In this document: one piece after another, positions 42,110 to 64,000 of the stretch | Layout of the letters: each line of letters begins with the position of its first letter | How positions within the stretch are numbered: the first letter of the stretch is position 1 | Origin: Aneurinibacillus terranovensis DSM 18919 | GTDB lineage: Bacteria > Bacillota > Bacilli > Aneurinibacillales > Aneurinibacillaceae | NCBI RefSeq assembly: GCF_000430625.1 | Contig: NZ_AUMJ01000018.1 | Span: 1-64,000, forward strand | Direction: 5' to 3' | DNA length: 64,000 bases | Made by a program: the position numbers and the translations under genes | Notes under the pieces: generated by a model | Told to the model about the DNA's origin: nothing | The model's input: only the letters and a program-made list of their open reading frames with translations | Database searches by the model: none

Positions 42110-42874
42110 TCACACCTCCTCATCATATTGTACGTAGTCTTTGCGAAGCGGGTGTCCAACCCATGAATCCGGCAGAAGGATGCGTTGAAGGTTGTAATGT
42201 CCCTCATATTTAATGCCTAAAAGGTCATACGTTTCCCGTTCGAACCAGTCAGCACCCGCCCAGATATCTGTAACGGAAGAAACGACGGCAGCGTCGCGGT
42301 CTATTTTCACTTTCACACATACCGTATGGCCGTGTTTGTATGAATATAAATAACATATGGATTCCATATGAGTCTCATAGTCAACACCGAGACTTAAAGA
42401 GAGATAATCAAACGCAAGCTGCTCATCATCATGGAGCATGCGGGCGATATCGTGCCACTTCTCTTTGCGGACAATCAATGTCGGAATATGCTCGCTTGCC
42501 TCGTTAATATAGGAATTTTCGATCGCATCGGAACCCCAGGCATCTGTTATTAGTTTCACAAACTTATCCAGTATAGGTTGATTATGTGACGGCTTCTTCG
42601 GTTCGGCAGCGGCTCCTTCTCCCTCGGCTGCCCCGGCGGCTTTCGCTTTGGCGGCTGCGGCGGCTGCGGCTTTTGCCTTGGCAGCGGCGGCAGCCTTGGC
42701 TTTCTCGTCGTCTCCCCCTGTTTCTCCACCCGCGTTTGCTGCGGCATTCGCTGCGGCTTTTGCCTTAGCTGCGGCGGCTGCGGCGGCTTTGGCTTTTGCG
42801 GCGGCAGCCGCTTTCGCTTTCGCTGCAGCAGCAGCTTTCTCCTCCGGTGTCGGCTTTTGTGTTTCATCGCTCAT
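42110..42874 (-). CDS. nuoC: NADH-quinone oxidoreductase subunit C with Ala/Lys-rich N-terminal extension
   Basis: A 254-residue subunit. The conserved NuoC part is about residues 95-254 ([20 protein letters not shown], then [20 protein letters not shown] and [20 protein letters not shown]), of normal length. Residues about 10-90 are a low-complexity extension of AKAKAAAAA-type runs in three blocks, broken by GGETGGDDE and [11 protein letters not shown]. The extension is encoded by GCN-rich repeats that could change length by slippage. It would form a long helix outside the complex. It overlaps nuoB by four bases. Confidence 0.93.
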
Positions 42875-43954: not shown

Positions 43955-44440
43955 ATGCCATTTAACGATAAAATATCTATTGTGTTTGTATGCCTTGGTA
44001 ATGTTTGCCGGTCTCCGCTCGGAGAAGGGGTATTTCGTCATCTCGCAGCAGAAAAAGGACTTATCGATAAATTCGTTAAAGATTCTGCCGGTACGGGCGG
44101 CTATCATATTGGAGAGCCTCCCCACCCCGGTTCACGAAGCGTTGCCGGCAAGTTTGGCGTATCGCTTGACGGACAGCTCGCCCGCCAATTTACAAAAGGG
44201 GATTTGCCAAAGTGGGATTATATTATCGCGATGGACAGTTCCAACCACCGAAATATTATCAAACTGGGGAACCCGACCGGAAATGTTCATTTACTCCGTG
44301 AATTTGACCCGAAAGGTTGCGGGGACGTCCCGGATCCATGGGGAAGAGGCGACGATGCTTTCCTGGAAACCTATACGATCATCTACCGCTGTTGCGAAAA
44401 GCTGCTGGATCATATTGTGAGGGTGCACCATCTTATGTAA
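43955..44440 (+). CDS. Low-molecular-weight protein-tyrosine phosphatase
   Basis: 161 residues. The P-loop FVCLGNVCRSPLGEGVF (Cx5R) is near the N-terminus. The general-acid Asp region is GCGDVPDPWGRGDDAFLETY, where most relatives have DP(Y/W/F). The middle helix-rich part PKWDYIIAMDSSNHRNI is also typical. It lies alone on the plus strand between the divergent nuo and convergent atp operons. In B. subtilis the relatives are YfkJ/YwlE; the DPWG pattern is nearer to the tyrosine-phosphatase group. Substrate unknown. ATG 43955 follows AGGTG. Confidence 0.85.
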   Translation: MPFNDKISIVFVCLGNVCRSPLGEGVFRHLAAEKGLIDKFVKDSAGTGGYHIGEPPHPGSRSVAGKFGVSLDGQLARQFTKGDLPKWDYIIAMDSSNHRNIIKLGNPTGNVHLLREFDPKGCGDVPDPWGRGDDAFLETYTIIYRCCEKLLDHIVRVHHLM

Positions 44441-58372: not shown

Positions 58373-59002
58373 TTATTTGGTTCCAAACAGGCGGTCTCCA
58401 GCGTCTCCGAGACCTGGTACGATATATCCATGGTCATTCAGGCGTTCATCTACAGCAGCAACATAAAGGTTAATATCAGGATGTGCCTGCTGCAATCGTT
58501 CAATCCCTTCCGGGGCAGCAATTAAACACATCAGCTTCAGGTTTTGTGCACCGCGGTTTTTAAGAGCTGTGATCGCCGCCGCTGCCGAGCCGCCTGTTGC
58601 AAGCATCGGGTCAATGACGATCAATTCCCGTTCCTGAATATCGCTTGGCAATTTCACGTAGTATTCTACCGGTTCCAACGTTTCCGGATCACGGTATAAT
58701 CCCACGTGTCCTACTCTTGCCGCCGGAATTAATTTAAGCATACCGTCAACCATTCCGAGCCCCGCGCGAAGAATGGGAACCAGCCCGACCTTTTTCCCGG
58801 AGATTACTTTTGTTTTGCATGTAGTAACAGGTGTTTCAATTTCAATTTCTTCCAAGGGCATTTCGCGCGTAATTTCGTACGCCATCAACATAGCCACTTC
58901 ATCTACAAGCTCACGGAACTCTTTCGTTCCGGTATTTTTATCACGAATATACGATAACTTATGTTGAATTAACGGATGATCAAACACATACACCTTACCC
59001 AT
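58373..59002 (-). CDS. upp: Uracil phosphoribosyltransferase
   Basis: A 209-residue salvage enzyme making UMP from uracil and PRPP. PRPP loop [20 protein letters not shown]; uracil-binding tail [19 protein letters not shown]. Normal length. ATG 59002 follows GGAGG. A TATAAT box lies at 59067-59072 on the minus strand but without a clear -35. It is 84 bases before mnaA. Confidence 0.96.
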
Positions 59003-59378: not shown

Positions 59379-60629
59379 TTATATTTCGAGGCCGGGATAC
59401 ATGGGAAATTTTTCGCATAAGGCGGTAACGCGTGTACGCGCTTCTTCCTGCTTCGCTTCGTCCTGCGGGTTTTTCAAAGTGAGAGCCATAATGGATGCGA
59501 CTTCTTTCATGGCTTCTTCATCAAAACCACGGCTTGTTACGGCTGGTGTGCCAATGCGAATGCCGCTTGTTACAAACGGGCTTGCCGGGTCATACGGAAT
59601 GGTATTTTTGTTGCAAGTAATCCCTACTTCATCAAGAAGGTGCTCGGCTTCCTTACCGGTCAGGTTCAGATTGCGCACATCAATCAAAATCAAGTGGTTG
59701 TCTGTACCGCCTGAGATCAGATTTAATCCTTCCTCAGTCAATGAGCTAGCCAGCTGCTTCGCATTCGTTACAATTTTAGACGAGTATTCCTTAAATTCCG
59801 GCTGCAGCGCTTCACCAAACGCTACCGCTTTGGCTGCTATTACATGCATGAGCGGACCGCCTTGAATACCCGGGAAGACAGCTTTATCGATGGCTTTTGC
59901 ATATTCTTCTTTGCAAAGAATCATCCCGCCGCGTGGACCGCGTAGGGTTTTGTGGGTCGTTGTGGTCACAAAATCAGCATATGGCACCGGATTCGGATGG
60001 TGGCCTGTCGCAACCAAGCCGGCAATATGGGCCATATCAACCATCAGATATGCGCCTACGCTTTTAGCAATCTCGCTTAGTTTCTCAAAATCAATAACGC
60101 GAGGGTAGGCACTGGCACCTGCAACAATTAGTTTAGGCTTATGCTCTTCCGCTTTTCTGCGGACATCTTCATAATCAAGAACCTGGTTTTCTTTATCGAC
60201 TCCGTACTCGACAAAGTTATAAAGGTTCCCGGAAAAGTTAACCGGGCTACCGTGCGTTAAATGACCTCCATGAGATAAGTTCATGCCCAGAACGGTGTCA
60301 CCCGGTTTAAGAATCGTAAAATACACCGCCATATTCGCCTGGGCTCCGGAATGCGGTTGAACATTCGCATGCTCGGCGCCGAATAATTCCTTGGCGCGGT
60401 CGCGTGCCAGGTTTTCCACGATATCCACGTATTCACATCCGCCATAGTAGCGCTTGCCGGGATAGCCTTCTGCATATTTGTTGGTAAGGACCGTTCCCAT
60501 CGCCTCCATTACGGCTTCACTGACAAAGTTCTCGGAGGCGATAAGTTCAATTTTGCCGCGCTGGCGGCCAAGCTCTAGCCTGATAGCTTCTGCTACCTGT
60601 GGATCCTGCTTCTTCACGTGTTCAAACAT
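59379..60629 (-). CDS. glyA: Serine hydroxymethyltransferase
   Basis: A 416-residue PLP enzyme converting serine and tetrahydrofolate to glycine and methylene-THF. PLP lysine in [20 protein letters not shown]; cofactor contacts in [40 protein letters not shown] also typical. ATG 60629 follows AGAGGGG. It comes after rpiB-ywlG in the order of Bacillus and is probably transcribed with them. Confidence 0.96.
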
Positions 60630-60665: not shown

Positions 60666-61235
60666 TTATGTGCAACTTTCTTCTGCGGATGAACGTTCAT
60701 AGACAGCCCGTGCCCCGCCGATTAATTTGGGGCGCGTACGGGCCATTGTCACATGCGCCTCACCCAGTTGCTTTACGCTGGGCCTTACAGGAACGGCAAC
60801 AGGTTTAAGGTGCATTCCAATAAACGTATCACCGATGTCAATCCCCGCGTCCGCCTGAATGTATTCCACCAGTACCGGGTCATTCATCTTTTGAAAAGCG
60901 CCTGCCGCCATCGATCCCCCGGCTTTGGGCACAGGTACCGCAGAAACCTCCGGCCAGCTATAGCGTTCCGCCGTTGTTCGTTCAACGACAAGCGCGCGGT
61001 TTAAATGCTCGCAGCATTGAAACGCCAGAGCAAACCCGTGTCTTTCGCTTGCCTCCTTAAAAATACTGTAGAGAGCCGCGGCAACCTCGACGCTGCCCGC
61101 CGTCCCGATTTGTTTACCGATGACTTCACTCGTGCTGGTACCGATAACGAGAACATGTTTTTCGCCCAGTGGTGCGGACTGTAAAAGTTCTGCCACAATG
61201 GACTGTGCGTCTTGTTTCAGTTTTTCAATGTTCAC
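60666..61235 (-). CDS. ywlG: TIGR01440 family protein (YwlG)
   Basis: A 189-residue protein of the UPF0340/TIGR01440 type: HVLVIGTSTSEVIGKQIGTA, then LAFQCCEHLNRALVVERTTA and MNDPVLVEYIQADAGIDIGD. Its job is not known; the fold is like Zn- or nucleotide-linked enzymes. The position between rpiB and glyA is conserved in Bacilli. Starts with GTG 61235, 13 bases after the rpiB stop. No odd features. Confidence 0.9.
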   Translation of the reverse strand: MNIEKLKQDAQSIVAELLQSAPLGEKHVLVIGTSTSEVIGKQIGTAGSVEVAAALYSIFKEASERHGFALAFQCCEHLNRALVVERTTAERYSWPEVSAVPVPKAGGSMAAGAFQKMNDPVLVEYIQADAGIDIGDTFIGMHLKPVAVPVRPSVKQLGEAHVTMARTRPKLIGGARAVYERSSAEESCT

Positions 61236-61248
61236 ACGGCTTCACACC

Positions 61249-61692
61249 TTACTGGTTATCTTCGATTTCCTTAATTTTTTCAATGCGCCGCAAGTGCCGT
61301 CCACCTAAAAACGGCGTATGTATCCAAATTTTTACAATTTCAAGGGCGAGCCCCGGTCCGATCACACGCTCTCCCATCGCCAGTACATTTGAATCATTGT
61401 GTTCCCTTGTGGCTTTTGCGCTGAAAGAGTCATGGACAAGCGCGCAGCGAATCCCTTTCACTTTATTCGCCGAAATCGACATGCCTATGCCCGTACCGCA
61501 CACGAGGATCCCACGGTCAAATTCCCCGGTGGCTACCTTCTCCGCTACCGGAAGCGCATAGTCCGGATAATCCACCGAATCCGTACACGTACAGCCAAAA
61601 TCCTTATATTCTATCCCTTCCGATTCCAGGTACTTCTTAATCTCTTCCTTTAACACATAACCCCCATGGTCAGCTGCCAACGCTACCTTCAC
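61249..61692 (-). CDS. rpiB: Ribose-5-phosphate isomerase B
   Basis: About 147 residues of the RpiB/LacAB family. N-terminus VKVALAADHGGYVLKEEIKK; catalytic Cys in GILVCGTGIGMSISANKVKG; the substrate region EHNDSNVLAMGERVIGPGLA. I start at GTG 61692 behind GGAGGAG, which gives the normal N-terminus. Sorbose/galactose isomerases are near relatives; the context (glyA, ywlE) favours ribose. Confidence 0.9.
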   Translation of the reverse strand: MKVALAADHGGYVLKEEIKKYLESEGIEYKDFGCTCTDSVDYPDYALPVAEKVATGEFDRGILVCGTGIGMSISANKVKGIRCALVHDSFSAKATREHNDSNVLAMGERVIGPGLALEIVKIWIHTPFLGGRHLRRIEKIKEIEDNQ

Positions 61693-62163
61693 TTTTTCTC
61701 CTCCATTCCATGTCATCCTGTAATGTCTAAAAGTATTATACCCTATTCCTCAAGGTTGCATAGAGAAGATTTGTGAAAATACAAAATCAAAAACCTGTAC
61801 GTTACTCTATTATACACTAATTATTGTTCGTCTTTAACAACAAACATAATTTTTCCCGGGTTTCTTTTAAAGTAAATCAGTTTGTTCTGCAAAAAGAGGT
61901 TTTGCCAAACAGCCCGAAACATGTGGGTGGGTGCTTTTTTTCGTTCCCTGCTCCCGTCAGTACCAGGAAAACGCACCCTCTTCAATCCCGATATAGCATA
62001 ACCTTGTAAGACGCACTACCCGAATGTTTCGGGCCGCCTCCAGGCGGAAGAGAAACACGGACAGTTGAAGTGTTTTTAACAAATGATGTTACGTGGAAAC
62101 AAAAAACGGAAGCGTCTAAGCTCCCATTTCGAATCATCCGTATGCTCACGTACCAAGAATAAA
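61693..62163. other. Gap between the MCP gene and rpiB
   Basis: 470 bases without a convincing gene. It holds a candidate rpiB promoter (61809-61837) and two small hairpins, CCCGAA/TTCGGG (62019-62033) and CCGCCT/AGGCGG (62034-62047), with no T-run. The MCP terminator is not obvious. A 61-codon plus-strand frame here has no ribosome site and I do not count it. Confidence 0.5.
61809..61837 (-). promoter_or_regulatory. Candidate promoter for rpiB-ywlG-glyA
   Basis: Minus strand TTAAAG (61837-61832), 17 bases, TATAAT (61814-61809). Perfect -10, weak -35, about 115 bases before rpiB. Confidence 0.4.
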
Positions 62164-63450
62164 CTATACCCGAAACCTTGCGACAAGGTCTTTTAACTGT
62201 TCGGACTGCTCACGCAGCACCTGTCCGGCTGCAGCGACCTCCTCCATAAAAGCGGTTTGTTCCTGGGCCGCATTGGAAACCGTCACCGCTCCCTGCGATG
62301 TTTCTGTAGCAACACGCGCCACTTCGCGGGCACCCTTCATGGTAACTTCCATGCTATCAACCTGACGGGCGATGAGAGCACAGATCTTTTCAACAGAATC
62401 AACCACACCATTAACCGAATCAGAGATATTAGCGAGCGCTTTGGTCGTTTCCTCGCCGCGCTTGGATTCTTTATTCGCAATCGATACCTGCTCGCTGATT
62501 TGCTTGACGACATTTTCTACCTGCCGCTGCATTTGTTCAATTAACGAGTTAATGTTAGCCGCCGCCGTCCCGCTTTCATCGGCAAGCTTGCGCACTTCAT
62601 CCGCTACAACGGCAAATCCTTTGCCGTGCTCTCCTGCACGGGCCGCTTCAATGCTCGCATTTAGGGCAAGCAAATTGGTCTGCCCGGCAAGTTCGCTGAC
62701 AACCCGGGTAATGTTGCCGATTTCACCGGCATTTTTCTCTAAATCCTGCACAAGTTGAATTGACAGTTGATTCTCAGTGGCAAGTGTATGCATCCCTTCC
62801 ACCAGAGAAGCCACCACCTTATTGCTTTCATGCAGCGTTGTTAACATCTGCCTCGAAAGCGAGCGGGAATTCTCGGCAAACCGGTTGACATCGTGGCTTA
62901 ACTGACTTACCGCTTCCAGTGATTCCACAGCCGCTTTCGTGTGCAATTCCTGACTCTCAGCACCGCGGGCAATCTGTTCCATAGTTACGCTTACCTGTTC
63001 AATTTGAACAGCAGCCTGCTCCGAAGCATACGTTAATTCATTTACGCTCGTTGCCGTACTCTCACTTGAAGTGTTAATATCTTTAATCATGTTGCGCAGA
63101 TTTGTAATCATCGTGGCCAGCGAGCCGGCAAGCGCGCGAATTTCGTCATCCGATTTCGGCACCTTCACCTCGACGCGTAAATCACCCGTTGAAGCGGTTG
63201 AAGCTGCCTTTTCCAACTGCACCAGCGGCCGTGAAATCCAGCGGGCTACGAGCCAACCAAAAAAACCTGACCAGAATACTCCCAGGGCCAGCGTTAACAG
63301 CGTAAAAAGCCAGGCAGGGATAAAGGTTACGTATTTTTGGAGTACAAACAGAAAAAACGCGCTTGTACTATATGTAACCGCGGATAGCGAGCTGATTCCA
63401 ATGACTAATTTTTTCTCTAAACTGAATCGGTGCTTTGATTTATGCTCCAC
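62164..63450 (-). CDS. Methyl-accepting chemotaxis protein without an outside ligand domain
   Basis: About 428 residues. Two membrane helices lie close together (about 15-40, [20 protein letters not shown], and 48-75, [20 protein letters not shown]), so there is only a short outside loop. A HAMP domain follows (about 76-130, [20 protein letters not shown]). The long coiled-coil signalling domain has the hairpin tip [20 protein letters not shown] with ADEVRKLAD. With no periplasmic-type sensor it may detect membrane state or something in the cytoplasm. I start at GTG 63450 behind GGGGGAGGA. It breaks the ywlE-rpiB order known from Bacillus. Confidence 0.88.
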
Positions 63451-63516
63451 CTGAGTCCTCCCCCTTGTACCAAAAAGCATAGTGCTTTTTAGTCTATATA
63501 TATCGGAAAATTAACG

Positions 63517-64000
63517 TTACCTATTCACGTTCTTTTCAATGATTCTAAGCAGTTGTTCGAGTGAATGAGAAATTTCTTCCGCACATTGCTCATATACTTC
63601 GAGCGGGCCTCCATACGGATCACTTATATCGTAATTAGGGGTTTGCTGTTCCAGTACCGCAATCCGGTTGCGCTCCTCGACCGTTTCTTTCATCAGTTGG
63701 TCTCTCCAATCATCGAGCCGCTCTCTTACCTGTTCCAATTGATTATATAACGTTTGATATTCATCCTCCAGCCTGGAAATTTCCTCACGATTCATGGCAA
63801 GAAACGCTTCCTGTTTCCTTTCCAATTCACGGTACAGTTCATCCAGTTCGGCTGTGCGCGTATTTGTTTCTGGCGACAAATCGGTATATTCTTTAAGTGT
63901 ATACACTTTATTTTCGTACTGCGGGTACTTCTGCCACAACGTATGACGATGCGATTCGGTCATCGTTAGAATGATATCGGCCCATTCCAGAAGCTCAGGT
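63517..64000 (-). CDS. ywlE: Protein-arginine phosphatase YwlE-like, C-terminal part, with coiled-coil insertion (5' end outside window)
   Basis: The frame enters at the window edge (PELLEWADIILTMTESHRHT) and gives the second half of a low-molecular-weight phosphatase, continuing WQKYPQYENKVYTLKEY. In B. subtilis YwlE about nine residues separate LKEY from the general-acid motif DPFGG. Here about 88 residues lie between LKEY and DPYGG, mostly charged helix (ELERKQEAF, REEISRLEDEYQTLYNQLEQ, WRDQLMKETVEERNRIAVLE). The end (GPLEVYEQCAEEISHSLEQL) is normal. The P-loop is outside the window. An inserted coiled coil beside the active site may bring in a partner. The context with rpiB and glyA supports YwlE. 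Confidence 0.85.
   Translation of the reverse strand, partial: PELLEWADIILTMTESHRHTLWQKYPQYENKVYTLKEYTDLSPETNTRTAELDELYRELERKQEAFLAMNREEISRLEDEYQTLYNQLEQVRERLDDWRDQLMKETVEERNRIAVLEQQTPNYDISDPYGGPLEVYEQCAEEISHSLEQLLRIIEKNVNR

Follow-up and report, generated by a model that had tools for sequence, protein, structure and literature searches.

An old, selectively maintained 88-residue arm ahead of the general-acid loop of a YwlE-type protein-arginine phosphatase in Bacillota

The closest described relatives of the protein analysed here are the YwlE enzymes of B. subtilis and Geobacillus (PDB 4kk3, 4kk4, 1zgg, 4pic), which share with it the P-loop with Thr11, the core, the acid loop and the genomic locus, but have a nine-residue loop where the source protein has 88 residues. 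According to PMC8001253, the preference of YwlE and of S. aureus PtpB for phosphoarginine is reported to be set by Thr at P-loop position 5 (PX5), and the general acid is reported to be the Asp conserved in the D-P-(F/Y) motif; for the phosphoarginine phosphatase PtpB, both roles, Thr11 in specificity and Asp in acid catalysis, are described there as shown by mutation, and no arm is mentioned in the passages concerned. A YwlE-type core is also present in T. tengcongensis PDB 4egs (E 9e-34), annotated as RpiB, whose solved chain has no arm. The low-molecular-weight tyrosine phosphatases YfkJ, Wzb and PtpA have PF01451 in common with these enzymes, but differ at PX5 and carry no arm. A PDB search found no arm in the solved YwlE structures, and a search of the open-licence literature found no description of a YwlE insertion.

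The window, meaning the whole 64-kb stretch of DNA that was analysed, covers bases 1-64000 of its contig, which is 98.7 kb long, and ywlE runs past the window's edge. On the contig the gene is complete, spanning bases 63517-64209 on the minus strand (230 aa, beginning MRILFVCTGNTCRSPMAE). The protein follows normal YwlE sequence over residues 1-108 and again over 197-230, whereas residues 109-196 are extra. The features of the gene within the window are as follows.

63517..64000, minus strand: in-window part of ywlE, the C-terminal 160 residues (71-230); the start codon lies at contig base 64209, beyond the window
63886..63897, minus strand: LKEY, residues 105-108, the final conserved YwlE block ahead of the arm
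63622..63885, minus strand: 88-residue arm, residues 109-196, 88 codons, read from the gene sequence
63793..63873, minus strand: predicted arm helix 1, residues 113-139, holding conserved L122, L125, K132 and F136 (AlphaFold2 of two homologues, inferred mapping)
63646..63789, minus strand: predicted arm helix 2, residues 141-188, past a conserved helix break at 140-142 (AlphaFold2 of two homologues, inferred mapping)
63607..63621, minus strand: general-acid loop DPYGG, residues 197-201, with Asp197 the general acid by homology
63520..63606, minus strand: C-terminal YwlE helix region, residues 202-230

The full gene matched the PF01451 profile with E 6e-35 and 121 bits (cut-off 23.2). Its best structure matches were YwlE PDB 4kk3/1zgg at E 4e-36, with the next non-YwlE type at E 1e-13. 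A phmmer comparison with B. subtilis YwlE (4kk3, 1zgg) placed residues 1-109 on 1-109 and residues 193-226 on 114-147. An earlier note, made when only the in-window part could be read, had put about 88 residues between LKEY and the acid motif against about nine in YwlE; the alignment gives exactly 88 ahead of DPYGG, the motif found here, and nine ahead of Asp118 in B. subtilis. The same note allowed that the gene might belong to a different phosphatase family, an alternative not borne out by the recovered 5' part: its Cx5R loop reads CTGNTCRS, with catalytic C7 and R13 in a C(X)4CR(S) loop and the diagnostic Thr11 at PX5. Nearly all of 246 relatives carry the CTGNTCRS P-loop with Thr at PX5, and a few carry CSGNTCRS. 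The McsB kinase is encoded elsewhere in the genome, on another contig (G000:C10:55873-56478; PF00217, E 2e-78). Judged from sequence, the gene almost certainly encodes a YwlE-type protein-arginine phosphatase, the counterpart of the McsB kinase, with a predicted enzyme activity.

The gene order at the locus is sua5-mntP-(ZIP-like)-ywlE-(MCP)-rpiB-ywlG-glyA-upp, with the following conserved neighbours in the window.

61249..61716, minus strand: rpiB
60666..61235, minus strand: ywlG-like gene
59379..60629, minus strand: glyA
58373..59002, minus strand: upp

The Sua5-MntP-ywlE-RpiB-GlyA-Upp order is retained in arm carriers from Halonatronum, Clostridia and Bacilli. This shared, orthologous ywl locus argues for descent of the arm-bearing genes at one locus.

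Several further features of the locus and the window were recorded. A methyl-accepting chemotaxis-type gene lies between ywlE and rpiB (window 62164-63480, minus strand), and such a gene also adjoins ywlE in two relatives of family f9 (L019, L021). The gene that separates mntP from ywlE (contig 64299-65054) encodes a ZIP-like metal transporter and likewise lies upstream of ywlE in many relatives. Long YwlE open frames occur in the relatives L108, L188 and L170, and the extension in L188 reads as an RpiB domain, giving a YwlE-RpiB fusion. The window encodes a second low-molecular-weight phosphatase (43955-44440, plus strand, 161 aa), a paralogue of the tyrosine phosphatase type whose loop, CLGNVCRSP, is not of the arginine type; it is placed between a run of NADH-dehydrogenase-like genes and the ATP synthase genes. 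A NuoC-like protein (42110-42874, minus strand) has a long low-complexity Ala/Lys-rich N-terminal extension with AKAKAAAAA repeats. No Rfam matches were found within the 64-kb window.

The arm contains 16 E, 7 D, 10 R and 2 K, a net charge of -11. Across the long inserts, hydrophobic periodicity peaks at 3.55-3.65 residues, and the long amphipathic arm helices bear a continuous hydrophobic stripe; the conserved arm positions, in the protein's own numbering, include L122, L125, K132, F136, L147, L154, L158, L165, E179, L186 and D194. None of the Pfam coiled-coil or helical families matched above its curated cut-off, with residues 105-190 giving sub-threshold matches only. AlphaFold2 was run on two arm-bearing homologues, and the helices were transferred to the source gene by gap-free alignment, so that their positions here are predictions. 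The Alicyclobacillaceae homologue (L037, 74 alignment rows) gave a mean pLDDT of 92 and a pTM of 0.74, with helices at 114-140 and 142-189 and the acid loop (194-202) at pLDDT < 50. The Halonatronum homologue (L038, 11 rows) gave a pLDDT of 84 and a pTM of 0.62, with helices at 120-141 and 143-189 and the acid region again weakly predicted; in both models the acid loop falls below or near 50-60 pLDDT. The L037 model superposes on solved YwlE with a TM-score of 0.88 normalised to YwlE, indicating that the core and the C-terminal helix keep their places.

The modelled helices are very unequal (47-48 against 22-27 residues). In both models the helix is interrupted at insert residue 32, a position often occupied by helix-breaking residues. 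A turn near insert residue 47-48 is a possible alternative: it is favoured by central loops in Tumebacillus (SGGQDP) and by a variant with a 7-residue deletion, whereas turn-forming residues are absent at that point from most arms of 88 residues. Co-variation (charge and mutual information), analysed over 57 sequences, about 36 of them effective, gave a signal too weak to place a hairpin turn or to fix the fold of the arm. Alignment and modelling thus agree with the earlier note that the insertion is helical, adjoins the general-acid loop and is flanked on both sides by normal YwlE sequence. Its description as a coiled coil is supported as far as two long amphipathic helices, which may or may not pack as an antiparallel hairpin. 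The models are thus consistent with an arm of two long amphipathic helices, which could possibly pair with a second chain.

The distribution of the arm was then assessed. A search of 100 related genomes returned full-length matches including the insert in several families, the remaining matches being N-terminal-only. Querying named genomes with the single protein gave no match, and querying them with an alignment recovered 80 loci; those bearing an insert came from Halonatronum, Paenibacillus, Virgibacillus, Tumebacillus, Thermoactinomycetaceae and Clostridia. The segment from LKEY to the acid loop was then measured in 246 YwlE-type proteins, a set enriched for arm carriers whose counts are therefore not frequencies. 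Its length was bimodal, with 4-40 residues in 101 proteins and 48-102 in 145. The main length classes are 9-10 residues; 52, nearly invariant in Paenibacillus; 61-81, in the Virgibacillus group and Thermoactinomycetaceae; and 85-88. Exactly 88 residues were counted in 36 inserts of this set, and this length recurs in Bacilli, Halanaerobiales and many families of Clostridia. Two arms (L327, L329) have 81 residues and resemble the 88-residue form minus exactly seven mid-arm residues. For an unbiased figure, 399 Bacillota genomes were sampled evenly; 346 contained a YwlE match, and 52 of these, from 25 families, encoded the approximately 88-residue form. The 52 carriers match along the full arm-bearing profile, none with an E-value above 4e-56; the best of the remaining matches covers residues 1-117 only, at E 3e-49, a sharp separation. 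The viral contigs searched contained distant low-molecular-weight phosphatases only and no arm carriers. The arm is an ancient YwlE element across Bacillota with repeated loss, and no peculiarity of a single protein or family.

McsB was found in 94 of 101 relatives, and those without it also had no clear YwlE, one fragmented genome excepted. Among the arm-bearing genomes it was found in 49 of 52; the three with no detectable McsB (G330, G453 and G662) could reflect assembly gaps. YwlE and McsB are thus found together in genomes of both kinds, arm-bearing and arm-less, and the arm is not needed for the pair to exist; this is the one result that bears on the suggestion of the earlier note that the insertion could select substrates or hold McsB or ClpC complexes. 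Because genomes with and without the arm do not differ correspondingly in McsB, the arm gives no pointer to McsB in particular. The arm has been lost repeatedly without loss of YwlE or McsB.

Ungapped comparison of own-family with Clostridia-type inserts scored 1.11 per residue (BLOSUM62 units) when the two were in register, against 0.22 for the next best of 56 shifts and 0.05-0.11 for one-heptad shifts. The recurrence of homologous inserts of the same length and register across the phylum indicates that the insertion did not arise by chance. A tree of the catalytic part (141 columns) requires at least 28 changes of arm state, though few of its forks are well supported (26 of 216 starred), and carriers and non-carriers are mixed within families: the source protein's own family, f1, has inserts of 12 and 88 residues, and f9 has 4, 22, 28, 87 and 88. 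The many state changes could be read, in place of inheritance with losses, as repeated gains of the arm or as its transfer from one lineage to another. We regard this as quite improbable, since it must accommodate homology at fixed length and register, genes at an orthologous locus, and an in-frame deletion caught inside one genus of family f97, where two species have 88 residues and a third (L344) has lost 61 codons while keeping both arm ends and a still closely similar core. In L344 the deletion is followed by a short repeated stretch, DMDVDVDMDV, ahead of the acid loop. Since the inserts are homologous, the state changes are most readily explained by a single early gain followed by many losses, and one ancient origin is very probable; recombination between orthologous ywlE genes is a possible contributor.

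The many losses might equally be taken to mean that the arm is a neutral decoration at a tolerant loop, because they mark it as dispensable. In pairs close enough for synonymous rates, however, dN/dS was 0.02-0.24 for the arm and 0.06-0.19 for the catalytic core (for example, 0.04 vs 0.07 and 0.02 vs 0.06). At longer distances the arm diverges faster (24-31% identity against 40-60% in the core), with no length change in the 88 class. The arm is under strong purifying selection. With dN/dS as low as in the core, and with length and register fixed over the phylum, the arm is functional and neutral decoration is highly improbable. The length of the amphipathic helices and their unbroken hydrophobic stripe would also suit an oligomerisation module, in which two arms form an antiparallel bundle, perhaps with exchange of acid loops, to give an active dimer. 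A helix that much outlasts its modelled partner, together with an unplaced acid loop, can occur when a monomer is modelled without its partner chain. In the model of a single chain, the C-terminal helix nevertheless superposes on its counterpart in solved YwlE, which speaks against an obligate swap, and arm length varies freely in the Virgibacillus and Thermoactinomycetaceae relatives; we consider this reading rather unlikely. Direct attachment to the Asp197 loop, and an acid loop poorly predicted in otherwise mostly confident models, would fit a regulatory lever that shifts the loop as it folds or binds and so turns the phosphatase on or off, for example with heat or partner binding. The low pLDDT may only mirror gaps in a mixed-length alignment or the small number of rows, and the acid loop itself is conserved, so that a lever also appears rather doubtful.

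A rim position, a conserved surface and repeated dispensability are best fitted by a docking or selectivity element. The arm would be dispensable for chemistry and, placed by homology to YwlE at the active-site rim, would offer a docking surface by which certain phosphoarginine proteins, or a partner from the McsB/ClpC system, are recruited or kept out; being joined to the acid loop, it could by its movement also position Asp197. Docking as the main role is suggested tentatively, with somewhat less than even confidence. The best overall explanation, which we hold to be reasonably probable, is a YwlE counterpart of McsB with an ancient 88-residue two-helix docking arm directly before the acid loop. 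A stricter version, in which Asp197 cannot reach phosphoarginine until the arm has bound a client, ClpC/McsB or another YwlE molecule, is distinctly unlikely; if true, the phosphatase would have been targeted at first, and the arm-less model enzymes would descend from it as an unregulated form.

Taken together, these results point to the arm as an old, selectively maintained part of YwlE, which many lineages do without, including the one behind all solved structures. Those structures are all of enzymes that lack the arm, and the YwlE studies surveyed used the enzymes of B. subtilis, Geobacillus and Staphylococcus. Should the arm be original and selected, the means by which this phosphatase recognises its targets may have been overlooked. 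Relatives that naturally lack the arm, in one case within a single genus, offer ready controls, and the choice that YwlE makes among phosphoarginine proteins becomes directly testable.
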